NCBI GenBank assembly: GCA_007693505.1
Contig: REDL01000059.1
Coordinates: 62,001 to 126,000 of the forward strand
Length of the DNA stretch: 64,000 bases
DNA from: Desulfovibrionales bacterium
GTDB lineage: Bacteria > Desulfobacterota > Desulfovibrionia > Desulfovibrionales > Desulfonatronaceae
Direction of reading: 5' to 3'
Below are positions 15,257 through 24,511 of the stretch, in pieces. Both the position numbers and the translations under genes were made by a program. Within the stretch, counting starts at the first letter, position 1, and every line of letters starts with the position of its first letter. The notes below the pieces were generated by a model. The model saw only the letters and a program-made list of their open reading frames with translations, did no database searches and was not told the DNA's origin.

Positions 15257-15300
15257 TCACGGGAATCCCAACGGGATTCTGTATCATAGCCCAGGGTTGC
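15257..15300. repeat. Partial copy of an interspersed palindromic repeat
   Basis: It contains GGAATCCCAACGGGATTC and GCCCAGGGTTGC, the two building blocks of the longer cluster at 21058-21315. Only one unit of each is present. Confidence 0.55.
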
Positions 15301-15411
15301 GGAAAGAGCTTGACATGCTTCTTTCGGACTGTTTTGAAGCCTATTAATGGACAATCGCTGAAATGCTTGCGAGCCATAAGCAGCCTTGCCTCCTCTCAAG
15401 GTGATCATTCT

Positions 15412-15864
15412 ATGCAGAATAATAAGGCAAAGAACAAGATGAATAACATTTATTACCATAAAATTCAAATTCTCATTACAATAATTTTCATTGCATCAAT
15501 GTATGCCATCTATTCATTTTACATAAAGTATAGTGAAACAGATTCAATCTTATATATGATATTTACAATAATATTTTTGATGATTTGTATTATTTTCGTA
15601 AAACAGGTAATTATATGGAGAAGCATAGAAATTGATTGTGAATTTGTCACTGTTCGAAAATTTTTTTGCAAGCCAATAAAAATAAATATTTCAGATTTTC
15701 TATATTAAATTGTTACCGATAAAGAAGAAATTCTTTCTTATATGTTTCAATATTGGAAATATTATGTTCAAATATCTCCAATAGTATACAGAAATGGACA
15801 AGAGTTGTCTGAAAGAATAATTGATCACATGAAACGAATAAAGTTTGTTGTAGAGGTTGTGTAG
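15412..15864 (+). pseudogene. AT-rich small membrane protein gene interrupted by a TAA codon
   Basis: From the ATG at 15412, 98 codons encode a protein with two hydrophobic helices (about residues 20-38 and 45-65) and a basic, membrane-proximal tail. The frame stops at TAA (15706-15708). It then continues in the same frame for another 51 sense codons to TAG at 15862, with a protein-like composition (for example EEILSYMFQYWKYYV). A full product would be about 149 residues. The AT content is far above that of the neighbours, a sign of recent acquisition. TAA rules out selenocysteine. I do not recognise the family. Confidence 0.5.
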
Positions 15865-15967
15865 AGATTTTTCACTTCATAAATCCTTTAATCTACAACT
15901 ACACAGATACTTTTATATCATGCCGTTAAAAAAGATATTTCCACAGCACCAAAGGAAGCCCAAATAA

Positions 15968-18463
15968 ATGAACCTACACCTCCATGAACAGTTGAAAGGC
16001 CACATCTGGGAAATCGCCAACCGTCTTCGCGGGCCTTACCGACCGCCGCAGTACCGTCTGGTGATGCTGCCCATGGTGGTGCTGCGGTGTTTGGATTGCG
16101 TGCTGGAGCCGAGCAAGGAGGCGGTGTTGCGGCAGTATGCCAAGCTGACGGCCCAGAATATGCCGGAAAACGCCATGGACAGGCTGCTTGGCAAGGCCGC
16201 CGACCCGACGCGCACCTATCCGCTGTACAACATCAGCCCGTTCACCTTTGAAAAGCTGCTGGGCGATTCGGAGAATATCGCGCCCAACCTGGTGGCCTAT
16301 ATCAACGGTTTTTCGCCCACGGCCCGGGCCATTTTCGAGCGGTTCAAGTTCTCGGACCAGATCGAGAAGCTGGACGCCAGCAACCGCCTGTTCACCATCA
16401 TCAAGGCCATGTCCGAGGTGGATTTGCACCCGGACCGGATCGACAACCTGCAAATGGGTTACCTCTTCGAGCATCTGGTGATGCGCTTCAACGAGCAGGC
16501 CAACGAGGAGGCCGGGGATCACTTCACCCCGCGCGAGGTCATCCGCCTGATGGCCAATCTCATCTACACCGGCGAGCAGGATGTCTACATTCCGGGCATC
16601 TTCCGCACCATTTACGACCCGGCCTGCGGCACCGGGGGGATGTTGTCGGAATCAGAGAAATTCATCCTCGGCCAGAACAGTCAGGCCAATCTTGCCCTGT
16701 TCGGGCAGGAGTACAACGACGAATCCTGGGCCATTTGCTGTTCGGACATGCTGATCAAGGACGAGGACACCAGCAGCATCGTCCTGGGTGACACCCTGGG
16801 CGACGGCAAGACCCGCGACGGATTCGAGGGCAGGCAGTTCCATTACCTGCTGGCCAATCCGCCCTTTGGCGTGGAATGGAAGGATCAGAAAACCGTTGTC
16901 GAAAAGGAGCACAAGGAGATGGGCTTTGCCGGGCGTTTCGGTGCCGGGCTGCCAGCCATCAATGACGGCTCGCTGCTGTTTTTGCAGCACATGATTTCCA
17001 AGATGCACCCGTACACCCGCTTGCCGGACGGGCAGGAGGAAGGGGACGAGAACGCGGTGGGCTCCAAGATTGCCATTGTCTTCAACGGCTCTCCCTTGTT
17101 TTCCGGCGATGCCGGTTCCGGCCCGTCGAATATCCGGCGCTGGATCATCGAGAACGACTGGCTCGACGCCATAGTCGCGCTGCCCGACCAGCTCTTCTAC
17201 AACACCGGCATCTTCACCTATGTCTGGCTGGTCACCAATCGCAAGGCCCCGGAACGGCGCGGCAGGGTCCAGTTGATCGACGGCACGCGCTTTTTCCAGC
17301 GCATGAAAAAGAGCCTGAACAACAAGCGCAACGAGATCACCGATGAACAGATCCGCCGCCTGACCCGGCTGTACGGGAATTTCCAGGACGGCGAGACCGC
17401 CGATGTACACATCAACGGCGATACCGAAACCCGCGTGGTCTCCCGGATTTTCGAAAACCGCGAGTTCGGCTTCCTCAAGGTCACGGTGGAGCGCCCCCTG
17501 CGCATGAACTTCGAGGCCAGCCCCGAACGCATTGCCCGGCTGGACGACCAGACCGCCTTTGCCAATCTGGCCACCTCCAAGAAGCGGAAAAACGAAGCCG
17601 CCGCCGCAAAGGAAATCGAGGAAGGACGCCGTCTGCAAGAGGCGATTCGCACGGTGCTGGCGACCCTGACCAAAAAAGGCCGCTACACCGACCGCGCCCA
17701 TTTCGACGCCGACCTGGCCACCGCAGCAAAAAAGACCGGACTCAAGCTCCCCGCACCCATCAAGAAGACCATCTTCACCGCCCTGGGCGAACGCGAGCCC
17801 GACGCGGAAATCTGCCGCGACGCCAAGGGACGCCCGGAGCCGGACAGCGAAATCCGCGACACCGAAAACATCCCCGTGCCCCCGGGCACCGAACTGCCGC
17901 TACCCATGCCCTTCGGCCCGGACAAGCCCAATGCCGAGCTGGTAGAAGCCTTCCGAAACGAAATCGACGCCTACATGACCCGCGAAGTGCTGCCCCACGT
18001 TCCGGACCTGCCCGCCATTCCACCGACTGCGGGAGAATATTGCGTCTATGTTCTAAAGTGTGCTGATGGAAGCTTTTACAAGGGGCAAACAGATGATTTT
18101 CCCAGGAGATTCAAAGAACACCAATCCGGCAAGGTGAGTTGGACGGCAAAGCATCTGCCTGTAATGCCCATTCACTGGGAAGTCTTTGACTCTCGTGAAC
18201 AGGCTGTCGCACGGGAACAATTTCTCAAAACCGGGAAAGGACGCGAATGGCTGAAACAGCAATTTGATCGAAAGGAACTTGCCAGCTTCAAGAGGCAGGC
18301 GGGCGCCTGGGTGGACTCCGACAAAACCAAAGTCGGCTACGAAATCCCCATCAACCGCCATTTCTACGTCTACAAACCGCCGCGTCCACTGAATGAGATC
18401 GAGGCGGAGATTGCCGAACTGGAAGGGGAGATTGCTGGGCTGTTGAAGGGGTTGGTGGGATGA
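15968..18463 (+). CDS. hsdM: Type I restriction-modification methyltransferase subunit with inserted GIY-YIG domain
   Basis: An 831-residue protein of the HsdM family, which with HsdS methylates adenine in the recognition site. Residues about 5-140 form the N-terminal helical domain. The N6-adenine methylase core has the AdoMet motif DPACGTGGM near residue 217 and the catalytic NPPF near 297. The C-terminal part carries an extra domain of about 90 residues (about 685-777) with GIY-YIG nuclease features: YCVYVLK, SFYKGQT, RRFKEH and the glutamate helix AVAREQFLK. The HsdM tail resumes right after it (AWVDSDKTKVGYEIP to the end). The insert is visibly less GC-rich than its flanks, which suggests a transferred segment. 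hsdS overlaps the stop by four bases. Confidence 0.93.
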   Translation: MNLHLHEQLKGHIWEIANRLRGPYRPPQYRLVMLPMVVLRCLDCVLEPSKEAVLRQYAKLTAQNMPENAMDRLLGKAADPTRTYPLYNISPFTFEKLLGDSENIAPNLVAYINGFSPTARAIFERFKFSDQIEKLDASNRLFTIIKAMSEVDLHPDRIDNLQMGYLFEHLVMRFNEQANEEAGDHFTPREVIRLMANLIYTGEQDVYIPGIFRTIYDPACGTGGMLSESEKFILGQNSQANLALFGQEYNDESWAICCSDMLIKDEDTSSIVLGDTLGDGKTRDGFEGRQFHYLLANPPFGVEWKDQKTVVEKEHKEMGFAGRFGAGLPAINDGSLLFLQHMISKMHPYTRLPDGQEEGDENAVGSKIAIVFNGSPLFSGDAGSGPSNIRRWIIENDWLDAIVALPDQLFYNTGIFTYVWLVTNRKAPERRGRVQLIDGTRFFQRMKKSLNNKRNEITDEQIRRLTRLYGNFQDGETADVHINGDTETRVVSRIFENREFGFLKVTVERPLRMNFEASPERIARLDDQTAFANLATSKKRKNEAAAAKEIEEGRRLQEAIRTVLATLTKKGRYTDRAHFDADLATAAKKTGLKLPAPIKKTIFTALGEREPDAEICRDAKGRPEPDSEIRDTENIPVPPGTELPLPMPFGPDKPNAELVEAFRNEIDAYMTREVLPHVPDLPAIPPTAGEYCVYVLKCADGSFYKGQTDDFPRRFKEHQSGKVSWTAKHLPVMPIHWEVFDSREQAVAREQFLKTGKGREWLKQQFDRKELASFKRQAGAWVDSDKTKVGYEIPINRHFYVYKPPRPLNEIEAEIAELEGEIAGLLKGLVG

Positions 18464-19739
18464 ACAATACCTTTGAGGAACAATGGCTTGTTGATTTACC
18501 GACATCTTGGGTAGAGAAGCGAGCAGATTTTCTCTGTGACTCTTATCGAATCACTGTTGATCCGTCACAATTTGGTGATGATCTTGTAGCCCATTACTCG
18601 ATCCCCCAGGTTCAGGAGACTGGTGGGCCAATTATTGAACCTGCCAGTGATATTGATAGCTCAAAGTTGCTCATAACGACCGACACTTTGTTAGTGTCTA
18701 AGCTGAATCCGCGAAAACGTACTATTTGCATTGCCACGCCTTATGGCGACCATCCTACTGTCGCCTCTGGTGAATTCGTGGCAATAAAATCCGACAAGAT
18801 TGATCAAAGATACGCTTATTACTTGTGGTGCAGTGAAAAGGTGACTGACCGACTATCAGCAATCGTGCAGTCCGTTACCCGTTCCCACCAACGGGTAAAC
18901 CCGTCAGACATTCAAAAATTGCCTTGGAAGTGGCCCCCCTTCGAAACCCAACGCCGCATCGCCCAATTTCTGGATGAAAAAACAGCGTGTATCGATGCTC
19001 TGGTCGAGAAAAAACGCGCCCTTCTGGACCGTCTGGCCGAAAAACGCCAAGCCCTGATCACTCGCGCCGTCACCAAGGGCCTCAACCCCGACGCCCCCAT
19101 GAACCCACCGGCATCGACTGGCTGGGGGATATTCCGTCACATTGGGAGGTGCTACCATTGAAGCGAGTTCTGCATAGCTCGACGTATGGCATATCAGCCT
19201 CTTTGGAGCCATCAGGTGAAGTCGCGGTGCTTCGAATGGGCAACCTTGTCAACGGGGAAATCGACTTTGACAACCTGCGATATCTCGATGAAATAGATGA
19301 AAATCTATTGCTTCAAGGAGGCGATATTGTTTTTAACCGAACAAACAGTCTTGACCTTGTCGGTAAATCTTCTATTTTTCGAGGAAATGTGGACTTCCCT
19401 GTCTCGCTTGCCTCATATTTAGTCCGCTTTCGATTTAATGATAGATATATACCGGAATACGCTAATTACGTGATGGGTGTAGAGCCTCTATTGGCTCTAG
19501 CCCGCTCACTTGCGCTACCAAGTATTGGACAGGCAAATCTGAATCCATCAAGGTACACATTAATAGAATTTCCTATTCCACCTGTATCAGAACAAAATGC
19601 AGTAACAGATTACTTGAAGTTGCACGTAAATAAAATTGGTACAATCAGACAGAGCATTTTAAGTACTGTAGATAAATTGATCGAGTATAGGTCTGCCCTC
19701 ATCACCGCCGCAGTCACCGGCCAGTTGGGGGTTGCCTGA
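18460..19739 (+). pseudogene. hsdS: Type I restriction specificity subunit, frameshifted
   Basis: HsdS has two target-recognition domains separated by conserved helices. The first half (18460-19161, 233 codons) has TRD1 and the helical spacer (QRRIAQFLDEKTACIDALVEKK). The frame fails near 19104, where AACCCACCGGC would read N-P-T-G-I-D-W-L-G-D-I-P, the normal entry to TRD2, if one more C were present. The second half continues in another frame to 19739 with TRD2 and a second helical repeat ending in ALITAAVTGQ. An intact protein would have about 426 residues. Either the gene is broken, the assembly has an error, or the N-terminal half works as a half-subunit dimer. It overlaps hsdM (ATGA) and the next gene (TGATG). 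Confidence 0.85.
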
Positions 19740-20917
19740 TGTCCGGGTCTGCCCGCATAAACCGGGTTCCCGTCAGCCCTCAGGTGGTGCAATGGGCACG
19801 AGAGCGTGCGCATTTGGACATTGAGGGGTTGATGGGCAGGTTCCCCAATCTTCCGCAGTGGGAACGGGGGGAGGTGCAGCCGACGTTCAGGCAACTGGAA
19901 GACTTTGCCAAGGCAACCCAAGTTCCTTTCGGCTTCCTGTTTCTGCCCGAGCCGCCGCGAATCTCCTTGCCGATTTCCGACTTTCGCACCGTGGGCCATG
20001 CCTATGCCGGTTCGGCAAGCCCGGAGTTGCTGGATACGATTTATACCATGCAGCGCCGTCAGGACTGGCTACGGGAAACCCAAATGGAATGCGAGGCGGA
20101 ACCTTTGGCCTTTGTCGGCAGCGCCCGCCTGACCGACGATCCCGCGGCCATTGGCCGGGAGATGCGCCGGTTCCTGGACCTTGAGGACGGCTGGGCGAAC
20201 AGGGTGCGTACGTGGCAAGAGGCTGTCAGCGCTATGCGCGGCATGATTGAGGCCCAAGGCGTGTTGGCGGTGATTAACGGCGTAGTGGGCAACAATACCC
20301 ATCGCAAGCTGAACGTTGCCGAGTTCCGGGGCTTTGCGCTGTGTGACGACCAGGCGCCGTTGATTTTCGTCAATGGCGCGGACGCCAAGTCCGCGCAAAT
20401 GTTCACCCTGGCCCATGAACTGGCCCATCTCTGGCTGGGCGCTGACGGCTCCGGCCTGTCCGGTTTCCCCGGCATTTTCCCCGAAGGCGGCGCAATCGAG
20501 GCGTTCTGTAACAAGGCCGCGGCGGAGTTTCTGGTACCGGAAGCGGAGTTGCGGGCCTGGTGGCCCGAGATTCAACGCGAAGCCGCGCCCTTCGAGACAT
20601 TGGCGCGTCGATTCAAGGTCAGTCCTATTGTGATCGGTCGACGGGCAATGGATCTGCGCCTCGTTGATCGCCGATCCTTTTTTGACTTTTACGAGGCATA
20701 TACCCGCCAGGAGCAAAGACAAAAGCAAATCGGCGGAGGCGGGGGAGACTTTTACAACAACCAGAATGCCCGCGTCGGCAGCTTGTTTGCGGTGCAGGTG
20801 ATTCGCGCGGCCAAAGAGGGACGCATCGGGTTCAAGCAAGCCTATGATCTGACCGGATTGCAAGGCGGCGCATTCCAGGAATATGCCCGCCGTCTGGGAA
20901 TGGAGCTGCCCCGATGA
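19739..20917 (+). CDS. XRE-type helix-turn-helix protein with ImmA/IrrE metallopeptidase domain
   Basis: A 392-residue protein. Residues about 10-65 resemble an XRE helix-turn-helix. A DUF955 ImmA/IrrE zinc peptidase domain follows, with the HExxH motif in FTLAHELAHLWLG near residue 225 and a downstream helix AFCNKAAAEFLVPE that supplies the third ligand region. Such proteins cleave repressors or antitoxins to switch on mobile or stress genes. The start overlaps the hsdS stop by one base, so it is part of the restriction operon. It could regulate restriction during establishment or in response to damage. Domain calls are firm; the target is unknown. Confidence 0.9.
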   Translation: MSGSARINRVPVSPQVVQWARERAHLDIEGLMGRFPNLPQWERGEVQPTFRQLEDFAKATQVPFGFLFLPEPPRISLPISDFRTVGHAYAGSASPELLDTIYTMQRRQDWLRETQMECEAEPLAFVGSARLTDDPAAIGREMRRFLDLEDGWANRVRTWQEAVSAMRGMIEAQGVLAVINGVVGNNTHRKLNVAEFRGFALCDDQAPLIFVNGADAKSAQMFTLAHELAHLWLGADGSGLSGFPGIFPEGGAIEAFCNKAAAEFLVPEAELRAWWPEIQREAAPFETLARRFKVSPIVIGRRAMDLRLVDRRSFFDFYEAYTRQEQRQKQIGGGGGDFYNNQNARVGSLFAVQVIRAAKEGRIGFKQAYDLTGLQGGAFQEYARRLGMELPR

Positions 20918-21057: not shown

Positions 21058-21315
21058 CCCCAACGGGGCATCGTCCTCTAGCCCAGGGTTGGCCAGCCAG
21101 CGGCTGGGCTACCCTGGGATTTTTGAAAAGAAGAAATTCAACCCCAACGGGGTTGTGTCTCATGAAGTTGCTGCCCATTTTCAATTTGAGGACGCAAACC
21201 AGAAGACGCAACCCCGTTGGGGTAGGCGACGGAAATATGCCCCGGTTCCCAGGGTAGCGGCACAGCCGCAACCCTGGGCTGGGGGACTGAATCCCGTTGG
21301 GATTCCTGGAAAAAA
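21058..21315. repeat. Cluster of interspersed palindromic repeats between the metallopeptidase and hsdR
   Basis: The spacer 20918-21388 has no convincing gene. It carries repeated CCCCAACGGGG-type palindromes (near 21058, 21142, 21210 inverted, and 21292 as ATCCCGTTGGGAT). These alternate with CCCAGGGT/ACCCTGGG blocks (near 21081, 21111, 21250, 21272). The pattern is tandem, partly inverted and translates to recurrent 'NPNG/NPVG' strings in several frames, as seen in dispersed repeats of many bacteria. A partial copy lies at 15257. Confidence 0.65.
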
Positions 21316-21388: not shown

Positions 21389-24300
21389 ATGTCCGGCCAT
21401 ACCGAGCGTGATTTCGAAATCGCCATTGAAGCGGGCCTGATCCGCGCGGGCGGTTATGCGAAGCGTGATGCCGCTGCCTATGACGAGGCGTTGGCCCTGT
21501 TTCCCGAGGATGTGACCGGCTTTCTGCGGGACAGCCAGTCCGTGAAATGGGGGCAGTTGGAGGCGCTGCTGGGCGACAAGACTCAGGCCACGGTGCTGGA
21601 CGATCTGGCCAAAGAACTGGAGATCAAGGGGACGCTGCATGTGTTGCGGCACGGCTTCAAATGCTATGGCAAAACCTTCCGGTTGGCGCATTTCCGCCCC
21701 AATTCCGGCATGAACCCGGAGGCGGCGGTCCTCTATGCCAAGAACCGGCTGACCATTGCCCGCCAGGTCGGCTTTACCTCGGTCCTGAAAAAGACCAACG
21801 GCCTGCCTGTCCGGCAGGCGGGCAAAGGCCGTCGCTGCGTCATCGACGTGACCATCAGCCTGAACGGACTGCCGGTGGTCACGGCGGAACTGAAGAATCC
21901 GCTCACCGGCCAGCGGGCGGCGGATGCGGTGAGGCAGTACATGCGGGACCGTGATGAGCGCGACCTGTTGTTTGCCTTCAAGAAGCGGGCGTTAGTGCAT
22001 TTTGCCGTGGACCCGGATGAGGTGTGGATGACCACGCGCCTGAAGGGCAAGGAAACGGTTTTTCTGCCCTTCAACCGGGGGCATCATCACGGCGCGGGCA
22101 ATCCGCCGGTGGAGAACAACTGGAAGACCCACTATCTCTGGGATGAGGTGCTGGAGAAAGACAGCCTGCTGGATATTCTGCAGCGCTTCATGCACCTGGA
22201 GGTCAAGGAGCGCAAGGTCAAGACCGACAAGGGGATGCGCACCATCCGCAAGGAAGCCATGATCTTCCCGCGCTATCACCAGCTCGACGCGGTGCGCAAG
22301 CTGGTCGACCATGCCCGGATACACGGCGCCGGGCGCAACTATCTGGTGCAGCACTCGGCCGGGTCCGGAAAATCCAACTCCATTGCCTGGCTGGCCCACC
22401 GTCTGGCCGGCCTGCACGATGCCCAGGACCAGAAGGTCTTTCACTCCGTGGTCGTGGTCACGGACCGGCTCGTCCTTGACCAGCAGTTGCAGAACACCAT
22501 CTACCAGTTTGAGCACAAGACCGGGGTGGTGGAAAAGGTCGACGAGGACACCCGGCAACTGGCCCGGGCGCTCTCCAACGGCACGCCGATCATCATCACC
22601 ACGTTGCAGAAGTTTCCGTTCATCTCCCAGGCCCTCTCCACGCTGGAGCGCAAGGGGGCCGGAGTCAAAATCAGCACCGCGGGCAGGCGCTTTGCCGTGA
22701 TCGTGGACGAGGCCCACTCCTCCCAGAGCGGCGAGACGGCCACGGCCCTGCGGGGGATGCTGAACAAGGACGGCATCGAGGCGGCCATCGCGGCCCAGTT
22801 GTCCGACGTAGAGGACGACGACCTGACCGACGAGGCCAAGGCCGCCATCCTGCGCGACGCCCTGCGCCGGGCGCGCCAGCCGAACCTGAGCTTTTTCGCC
22901 TTTACCGCCACGCCCAAATTCAAGACCAAGGCCCTGTTCGACGAACCGGGGCCGTCCGGCACGTCTCCCTTTCACGAGTACTCCATGCGCCAGGCCATTG
23001 AAGAGAACTTTATCATGGACGTGCTCCGGAACTACACCACCTACAAACGCTTCTTCGGGCTGATCAAGCAGGTGGAGAACGACCCGGAGGTGCCGCGCAA
23101 GAAGGCGGCCAAGGCCTTGACCCGCTACCTGGAACTGCATCCGGTGAACATCGAGCAGGTAGTTTCGGTGATTGTCGAGCATTTCCGCCTGTATGTGATG
23201 AGCGAGATAGGCGGACGGGCCAAGGCCATGGTGGTCACGGGCTCGCGGCTGGCCGCGGTGAAATACAAGCTGGCCTTTGACCGCTACATCCAGGACAGGG
23301 GCTACGTGGGCATCCGCTCCCTGGTGGCGTTTTCCGGCAGCGTGGAAGATCCGGACGATCCCGGTTCGGCCTATACCGAGGTGGCCATGAATGGCGGCCT
23401 GGCCGAAAGCGAGCTGCCCGAGGCTTTTGAGCGCGAGGATTACCGCGTGCTGCTGGTGGCGGAAAAGTACCAGACCGGCTTTGATCAGCCGCTGTTACAG
23501 ACCATGTACGTGGTCAAGCGGCTGGCCGGGGTCCAGGCGGTGCAGACCCTGTCCCGCCTGAACCGCAAGGCCCCGGGCAAGTCCCGGACCTTCGTCCTGG
23601 ATTTTGCCAACGAGGAGGACGACATCCACCGGGCCTTAAAGCCCTACTACGAGACCACGCCCATGGGCGAAAACGCCGAACCCCATCAACTGTCCGCCTT
23701 GCAGCACAAGCTGACGGCCTGGGCGATCTTCACGCCTGACGAGGTGAACGCCTTCGCGGATGTCTGGTATCGCCGCAAGCGCCACCATTCCGCCGCCGAC
23801 CACCGGGTGATGAACGCGGTTCTCGACGCGGCCGTGGCCCGTTTTCTGGAGCATCAGGAAGCGGAGCAGGAAGAGTTTCGCGGCCAGTTGACCGCCTTTC
23901 GCAACCTGTACGCCTTTTTGTCCCAGATCATCCCCTATCAGGACAGCGAACTGGAGAAGTTCTACGCCTTTGTCCGCAACCTGCTGGCCAAACTGCCGCC
24001 GCCGGGCGACGGCCAGGCCTTTGCCCTGGATGACGAAGTGGCCTTGCGCTATTTCCGGTTGCAGCAGATGACTGAAGGCTCCATCGACCTGGGCACGGGC
24101 GAAGCCTACCCCCTGAAGGGGCCCACGGACGTGGGGACGAGCTGCGTCATGGAAGGCCCGGTGACGCTGTCGTCGCTGGTGGAAAAGCTGAACGAGCGCT
24201 TCGGTACCAATTTTACCGAGGCCGACCAGCTCTTTTTCGACCAGATCAGCGCCAGCGCCGAGGACAACGAAAAAATCGTCGAAGCCGCCAAAGCCAACAA

Positions 24301-24511
24301 CCTCCCCAACTTTTCAGCGTTTCTGGAACGAATGCTCGACGAACTGTTCATCGACCGCATGGAAAACAATGAAGATATTTTCTCCCGGATCATGAGCGAC
24401 AAGGAATTTCGCTCCGCGGCGCATGAACACCTGGCGGAAGAAATTTTCAAGCGCGTGCGGGACGCGGAGTTTCGGCAGGGTGGGCGTCGAGCTGAATCAG
24501 TGCACATCTGA
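21389..24511 (+). CDS. hsdR: Type I restriction enzyme endonuclease/translocase subunit
   Basis: A 1040-residue HsdR. The N-terminal nuclease domain shows a PD-(D/E)xK pattern: the aspartate in VIDVTISLNG near residue 152 and ExK in TAELKNP near 168. The helicase motor has Walker A HSAGSGKS near residue 326, DEAH in VIVDEAHSSQSG near 440, and later motifs (FTATPKFKTKALF; LLVAEKYQTGFDQPLL; TLSRLNRKAPGK). A C-terminal helical part contacts the methylase. GGGAG precedes the ATG. Restriction needs HsdM and HsdS, so the hsdS frameshift may leave it inactive. An in-frame hairpin-forming segment at 21801-21823 adds LPVRQAG between the nuclease motif and upstream residues. Confidence 0.93.
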   Translation: MSGHTERDFEIAIEAGLIRAGGYAKRDAAAYDEALALFPEDVTGFLRDSQSVKWGQLEALLGDKTQATVLDDLAKELEIKGTLHVLRHGFKCYGKTFRLAHFRPNSGMNPEAAVLYAKNRLTIARQVGFTSVLKKTNGLPVRQAGKGRRCVIDVTISLNGLPVVTAELKNPLTGQRAADAVRQYMRDRDERDLLFAFKKRALVHFAVDPDEVWMTTRLKGKETVFLPFNRGHHHGAGNPPVENNWKTHYLWDEVLEKDSLLDILQRFMHLEVKERKVKTDKGMRTIRKEAMIFPRYHQLDAVRKLVDHARIHGAGRNYLVQHSAGSGKSNSIAWLAHRLAGLHDAQDQKVFHSVVVVTDRLVLDQQLQNTIYQFEHKTGVVEKVDEDTRQLARALSNGTPIIITTLQKFPFISQALSTLERKGAGVKISTAGRRFAVIVDEAHSSQSGETATALRGMLNKDGIEAAIAAQLSDVEDDDLTDEAKAAILRDALRRARQPNLSFFAFTATPKFKTKALFDEPGPSGTSPFHEYSMRQAIEENFIMDVLRNYTTYKRFFGLIKQVENDPEVPRKKAAKALTRYLELHPVNIEQVVSVIVEHFRLYVMSEIGGRAKAMVVTGSRLAAVKYKLAFDRYIQDRGYVGIRSLVAFSGSVEDPDDPGSAYTEVAMNGGLAESELPEAFEREDYRVLLVAEKYQTGFDQPLLQTMYVVKRLAGVQAVQTLSRLNRKAPGKSRTFVLDFANEEDDIHRALKPYYETTPMGENAEPHQLSALQHKLTAWAIFTPDEVNAFADVWYRRKRHHSAADHRVMNAVLDAAVARFLEHQEAEQEEFRGQLTAFRNLYAFLSQIIPYQDSELEKFYAFVRNLLAKLPPPGDGQAFALDDEVALRYFRLQQMTEGSIDLGTGEAYPLKGPTDVGTSCVMEGPVTLSSLVEKLNERFGTNFTEADQLFFDQISASAEDNEKIVEAAKANNLPNFSAFLERMLDELFIDRMENNEDIFSRIMSDKEFRSAAHEHLAEEIFKRVRDAEFRQGGRRAESVHI
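21801..21823. repeat. In-frame hairpin element inside hsdR
   Basis: GCCTGCCTG pairs with CAGGCGGGC around a five-base TCCGG loop (nine base pairs, one G-T). It encodes LPVRQAG in frame within the nuclease domain. The shape matches short GC-rich palindromes dispersed in some genomes. Confidence 0.4.

Follow-up and report, generated by a model that had tools for sequence, protein, structure and literature searches.

Genes and features of the locus

The window (the whole stretch of 64,000 nucleotides analyzed here) contains a type I restriction-modification operon in which hsdM hosts a GIY-YIG insert, referred to below as the long form, and in which both hsdM and hsdR carry short palindromic inserts, the short forms (Table 1). 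The frameshift that splits hsdS lies near position 19100 (ATGAACCCACCGG), in the linker between the two target-recognition halves; HsdS may be genuinely bipartite, or the sequence may contain an error here. Other repeats were also found around the operon. A 41-nt inverted repeat (88%) at 15262-15302 and 21266-21306 brackets hsdM, hsdS and the M78 gene, leaving hsdR outside, and related CCCAACGGGG repeats at 21059-21223 represent another repeat family around the type I operon. Just upstream of hsdM there is an AT-rich stretch (15400-15900, GC ~24%) in a region of 58-60% GC.

Table 1. Genes of the type I operon and the elements inserted in them, in window positions.
Feature	Position	Strand	Remarks
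hsdM, type I DNA methyltransferase subunit, carrying the long form	15968..18463	+	831 aa; Pfam HsdM_N 9-147, N6_Mtase 163-475, GIY-YIG 691-757; PADLOC MTase_I 2.6e-256
Short form in HsdM	17015..17035	-	21 nt; palindrome CTGCCCGTCCGGCAAGCGGGT, codes TRLPDGQ
Long form (half-palindrome, GIY-YIG nuclease, half-palindrome)	18008..18304	+	297 nt, 99 aa
5' terminal half-palindrome	18008..18016	+	CTGCCCGCC, codes LPA; CTGCCYG common to long-form relatives
GIY-YIG catalytic domain core (predicted)	18038..18238	+	Pfam PF01541, HsdM residues 691-757, E=1.4e-11
3' terminal half-palindrome	18294..18304	+	GGCAGGCGGGC, codes end of RQAG; C/G type here
hsdS, specificity subunit, split by frameshift	18460..19739	+	ORFs 18460-19161 and 18987-19739 overlap and match consecutive parts of NF007278
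Peptidase_M78 (ImmA/IrrE) gene, RmrA-like	19739..20917	+	Pfam PF06114; PADLOC RmrA 1.8e-13
hsdR, type I restriction subunit, short-form host	21389..24511	+	1040 aa; Pfam HSDR_N, SWI2_SNF2, T1R_D3-like
Short form in HsdR	21803..21823	+	21 nt; CTGCCTGTCCGGCAGGCGGGC, codes LPVRQAG

An exact in-frame insert in HsdM

The Pfam match confirmed the initial annotation, in which a GIY-YIG nuclease domain had been placed in frame inside HsdM. A scan of 84,980 species genomes yielded 80 loci homologous to HsdM, at most ~90% identical, and gave no two strains that differ by the insert alone. All 66 homologues spanning the site were empty, with query residue 680 joined directly to 780, and two of them were short of two residues beside the junction. 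The alignment set the insert borders at HsdM residues 681-779 (18008-18304), so that the location given initially (18010-18305, residues 685-777) stood, while its exact ends did not. At the DNA level the join is LPHVPD/AWVD, no HsdM residue being lost; the flanks would thus read through if the insert were removed, as had been proposed. The lower GC content noted at first was also borne out (50.5% versus 60.4% in the rest of hsdM), and GC3 was 0.49 versus 0.82. Because all 66 homologues were empty, the join is clean and the base composition contrasts with that of the host gene, the GIY-YIG domain of HsdM is, by this comparison, a recent, exact, in-frame insert and not an ancient feature. Neither of the findings that the initial annotation had listed as refuting it, namely many homologues sharing the domain at this position or borders unlike those of a clean insertion, was encountered.

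No further copies of the domain were found in other genes of the window's own genome, where the initial annotation had suggested looking, and no close relative that could be a recent donor was found in plasmids, phages or IMG/VR. A simple target-site duplication was sought at the insert and rejected; a direct repeat of 14 nt occurs at its left border but lies next to the insert and does not flank it.

The predicted nuclease

Residues Y14, Y24, G26, R34 and E70 of the insert were invariant among seven aligned family members. In an AlphaFold2 model of the insert by itself (pLDDT 69, termini disordered), strands and helices follow one another as in GIY-YIG domains, and a fold search retrieved PDB 1zg2 as the best match and also 1ywl, both UPF0213 structures; the UPF0213 profile matched with E=2.4e-15. 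By its catalytic residues, Pfam assignment, fold and PDB match, the insert belongs to the GIY-YIG superfamily and is a predicted nuclease. For full-length HsdM the mean pLDDT was 61 and fell below 50 in the insert, so that the position of the insert could not be read from that model. Four members of the family matched the NCBIfam group I intron endonuclease model TIGR01453 (best E=2.4e-5). Between the nucleases of L121 and L280, dN was 0.09 and dS 1.65; by this comparison, purifying selection on the nuclease is strong.

The long form of the window has neither a start codon nor a stop codon of its own. No ATG, GTG or TTG precedes the first catalytic tyrosine, and the same was true of four of six members tested; the nuclease is therefore predicted to be produced as part of the host protein.

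Palindromic ends and short forms in the operon

The two short forms were located by searching the window for the ends of the insert, and both 21-nt palindromes carry these ends (CTGCCY..GGCAGGCRGGC). Each is a 7-residue in-frame insert, absent from 80 of 80 aligned HsdM homologues and from 62 of 62 aligned HsdR homologues, respectively; a few HsdR homologues have three or four unrelated residues at the HsdR position. Within the whole 3.9-Mb genome of the window, the full 21-nt form occurs essentially only in the type I operon. No other element of this family was detected in sister HsdM/HsdR operons (1.23 Mb of homologous loci).

The ends of the long form read LPA...RQAG in protein and CTGCCYG...GGCAGGCRGGC in DNA, and ends of the LPA..RQAG type were conserved in 10 of 11 embedded members. 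The Y and the R at the two ends covary in type, matching in all 10 long forms and at 73 of 82 short sites. In the long form, some 280 nt separate these variable bases, which are third codon positions with synonymous changes, and the matching therefore looks like a constraint on the nucleic acid. Two of the ten copies are of one type, and permutation yields such agreement about once in 45 trials; by itself, the matching is modest evidence.

Long forms in other genomes

Whole-genome searches were made with the domain alone and then with a profile, which added four members; most of the genomes searched were drafts from one phylum. Ten further members of this GIY-YIG group were identified, 11 with that of the window, and all ten were embedded in longer genes, at many different sites. 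The hosts were five HsdRs (L121, L122, L280, L281, L282), two HsdMs (window, L283), three DUF1156 methylases (L117, L118 and L119, the last two scoring as PADLOC HmaB) and a PD-(D/E)XK protein with weak PADLOC matches to DruK and Cas4 (L120). Insertions were located in the N-terminal part of HsdR, between the helicase and the C-terminal domain of HsdR, at the C-terminus of HsdM, in the DUF1156 methylase and in the PD-(D/E)XK protein. Insert-free homologues were found for the hosts of L118-L122 (plasmid homologues).

The long forms ranged from 279 to 297 nt. Some departed from the common pattern: the element of L119 has degenerate ends, that of L117 an internal stop, and in L280 (G618 HsdR), which occupies the same HsdR site as L121 and L122, a 4-nt CTGC duplication at the element end breaks the host frame.

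In a tree of GIY-YIG members, built on few columns, the embedded ones clustered, with 2 label changes versus 9.8 in shuffles. The L122 member (HsdR site A) was nearer to L281 (site B) than to L121 and L280 (site A), a pattern expected of moving elements; the tree is suggestive of such movement.

An assembly or annotation artefact, with a free GIY-YIG gene misjoined into hsdM, is highly improbable. The hsdS frameshift leaves room for a sequence error in that gene, but a misjoin does not fit junctions with zero residue loss, matched palindromic ends and the pair of short forms that the operon also carries, nor the ten in-frame relatives in other assemblies, one of them a single-contig genome.

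Short forms elsewhere and the genes that carry the elements

Nuclease-free derivatives of 21-39 nt were present in the same genes of operons that have a long form, and all but one of them were a multiple of three in length. At least six genomes, that of the window among them, had genes with both a long and a short form, and the 21-nt class was also present in genomes without a long form. Family f13, which is rich in 21-nt palindromes, was considered as a source of the long form and rejected, because its GIY-YIG genes all stand alone and are flanked by repeats of other kinds.

A whole-genome test was performed in G199 (2.00 of 2.03 Mb covered). All seven short copies detected were multiples of three, and none appeared in controls that were of mismatched type or reversed. 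The eight copies (seven short, one long) all fell in two defence loci, a DUF1156/HmaB methylase operon with the long form, a helicase and a small HTH gene, and an HsdM gene. The short form in this HsdM (VLPYAAD/LPAPCSPRQAG/AWYD) is at the position homologous to the insert of the window. Since the HsdM clade of the window is otherwise empty there, the alignment points to repeated insertion at a favoured HsdM site. Further in-frame stretches in the Hma operon of G199, TGFQPV/KMPVAP and QASSLS (L118, L290), resemble other repeat families.

The 11 hosts of the long form were all restriction- or defence-type genes, despite genome-wide searches. Together with the invariant catalytic residues and the strong purifying selection, this host range speaks for a functional gain, in which GIY-YIG was recruited for a new cutting or nicking activity in the restriction enzyme and the palindromic ends are the scar of its entry. 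Eco29kI is a GIY-YIG endonuclease. It has been shown with Eco29kI that fused endonuclease-methylase polypeptides can work (PMC3039593). Nevertheless, such a gain is unlikely as the explanation of the insert. The sites vary between and within gene families and have no common geometry, the genes concerned also hold short forms devoid of the nuclease, one of which occupies the HsdM position taken by the long form of the window, and HsdM manages without the insert in all 66 homologues, so that the nuclease is not fixed at one place in the restriction-enzyme lineage. The second option of the initial annotation, a methylase that has gained a nuclease and can cut by itself, thus lacks support as the main explanation, given that the element is scattered over sites in HsdR, HsdM, DUF1156 methylases and a PD-(D/E)XK protein.

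Target site

The base 5' of the element was C in 27 of 27 copies of the long-form-related set, with GAC in 10 of the 27, and C also preceded 78 of 81 sites of the 21-nt class. Where copies lie within period-7 tandem repeats, the repeat phase is intact once the 21 nt are removed; insertion therefore leaves, as judged from these copies, no target duplication.

Other associations of nucleases with palindromes

In L281 (775-3282, G560 HsdR), residues ~414-553 form an in-frame DUF559 nuclease domain (PF04480, E=2e-35) with palindromic ends CCTCTCCC..GGGAGAGG and outer CCCTCACC/GGTGAGGG, and the same HsdR holds a GIY-YIG element. By its ends and its position in frame, this insert is a parallel element with another nuclease. 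Free-standing GIY-YIG genes of the phylum were flanked by inverted copies of other palindromes in 11 of 47 cases, versus 1.6% of swapped controls; such loci include L123, L131, L084, L126, L127, L129, L139 and others, with the repeats CCCCGTTAGAGAT, ACCCGGTGGAATA and CCGTTCGCCCTGAGGCTCTCGAAGGGTGA. At L249, L251, L252, L254 and L255, GIY-YIG genes adjoin a tRNA 3' end, several of them with a fragment of the tRNA repeated downstream. The palindrome- or tRNA-flanked genes and the DUF559 insert suggest that small nucleases tied to palindromes form a wider class.

Two further observations concern in-frame repeats. Viral contigs of one genome, IMGVR_UViG_2820306284 (L204, L208, L217, L220, L235, L240), carry many 21-nt palindromes CTGCCCGTCCGGCAGGCGGGY, which lie inside open frames and in several different reading frames. 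An in-frame insert of 324 nt with another repeat type (PRPLAGEGLGRG..PLSPGPSPASGRG) interrupts the HsdM of a betaproteobacterial MAG (L069) close to query residue 563.

A probable mobile palindromic element carrying a nuclease

These results are best explained by a mobile protein-coding palindromic element that carries a GIY-YIG nuclease, a reading to which we assign a probability of about 0.7. The initial annotation had named a mobile coding element entering without breaking the frame as its other option, and this is strongly supported by the clean borders, the empty sites and the palindromic ends in common, and further by the in-frame nuclease-free derivatives in the operon and by relatives inserted elsewhere, in other genes and at numerous positions. 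The long form would be a GC-rich palindrome, CTGCCY...GGCAGGCRGGC, opened around a stop-less GIY-YIG ORF whose product forms one domain of the protein that hosts it. The short forms (21-39 nt) would be versions without the nuclease and with the same ends, those of 24-39 nt resembling internal deletions. A nuclease made within HsdM, HsdR or HmaB would cut DNA at the target or at the element ends, and the cutting would drive copying of the long form and, in trans, of the short forms. Copies would persist where they are in frame at tolerant loops, and the elements would travel between species with restriction systems. In the genome of the window, the element probably came in with the type I operon.

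We infer the role of the nuclease in moving the palindrome, for which the palindrome-flanked free-standing relatives are only suggestive. The GIY-YIG ORF could instead be a passenger in an RPE-like palindromic repeat moved by an unrelated host process such as template switching or break repair. Nuclease-free short forms are indeed common, the 21-nt class exists in genomes without the long form, and comparable Rickettsia elements are described as non-autonomous (PMC2229807). A passive passenger is still quite improbable: at least six genomes have both forms within the same genes, the nuclease is under purifying selection, other free-standing GIY-YIG genes are flanked by palindromes far above swapped controls, and one of these genes has a further nuclease (DUF559) enclosed by palindromic ends.

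The mobile element may also have been of later benefit to the host enzyme (domestication), for which its occurrence in defence genes only and the purifying selection leave room. A more far-reaching version, which we put forward tentatively and at somewhat less than even odds, is a new class of selfish element, autonomous in its spread. Its nuclease, intein-like but without splicing, would exist solely as one domain among those of its host proteins and would be specialised on bacterial defence genes; it would carry itself and a host of miniature in-frame palindromes from one restriction system to another and move between species along with these systems. Such an element would provide a mover for in-frame palindromic elements, with DUF559-type nucleases acting in parallel.

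If movement is proven, restriction genes would harbour a genetic parasite of a new, "domain-disguised" kind. The comparable palindromic elements found here carry a conserved nuclease, and therefore their mode of movement is directly testable. A single restriction or other defence gene can gather several in-frame inserts, by which the proteins of anti-phage systems become more diverse. The case also advises caution, as a domain within an enzyme may be no part of that enzyme's job.

Comparison with known systems

No paper linking GIY-YIG with in-frame palindromes was found in the open-access literature. The small UPF0213/YhbQ proteins (PDB 1zg2, 1ywl) have the same domain by profile and fold search; however, they are free-standing, whereas all 11 members here are embedded. 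Like the homing endonucleases of inteins and introns, to which the TIGR01453 matches in four members relate, the nuclease is nested in another gene. The element differs from these in lacking a splicing domain or intron and in occupying many sites instead of one conserved site. No intein splicing domain was detected in the 99-aa insert, which matches GIY-YIG only, with ~10 residues before the core and 22 after it, and as far as the sequence allows one to judge, the element stays in the mature protein. In Type IIC restriction-modification fusions, such as the engineered Eco29kI R-M fusion, endonuclease and methyltransferase are in one polypeptide (PMC3039593). Such a fusion joins a cognate pair end to end, whereas here a non-cognate nuclease is inserted inside HsdM, HsdR and other proteins.

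Among mobile elements, the absence of a target duplication and the fixed 5' flank are similar to IS200/IS605, a likeness in the way of working only, since no HUH/Y1 transposase of that kind was found in the element. REP/REPIN sequences with RAYTs are short palindromes with a dedicated DNA-cleaving enzyme (PMC2817692), as the present palindromes have an associated predicted nuclease. RAYTs are tyrosine transposases encoded by separate genes and REPs are extragenic; the present element is intragenic and in frame, with its GIY-YIG within the host protein. No RAYT transposase was found in it, GIY-YIG being its sole coding part.

The RPEs of Rickettsia and the coding palindromes of Wolbachia are in-frame palindromic repeats in protein-coding genes and are tolerated by the host protein (PMC2229807, PMC10969869). 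In Rickettsia, such in-frame elements, known from 2000 onwards, are described as non-autonomous repeats (PMC2229807). The present elements, too, are palindromic, lie in frame in conserved genes and are absent from orthologues. RPEs are, however, ~100-150 bp long and reside in unrelated Rickettsia genes, and the available portions of these papers mention no nuclease (PMC2229807, PMC10969869), whereas the present element has short forms of 21-39 nt, a long form with GIY-YIG, restriction and defence genes as its sites and hosts from many bacterial families. Of the known kinds, the Rickettsia palindromic element comes nearest; the present one differs from it in size, hosts and nuclease.
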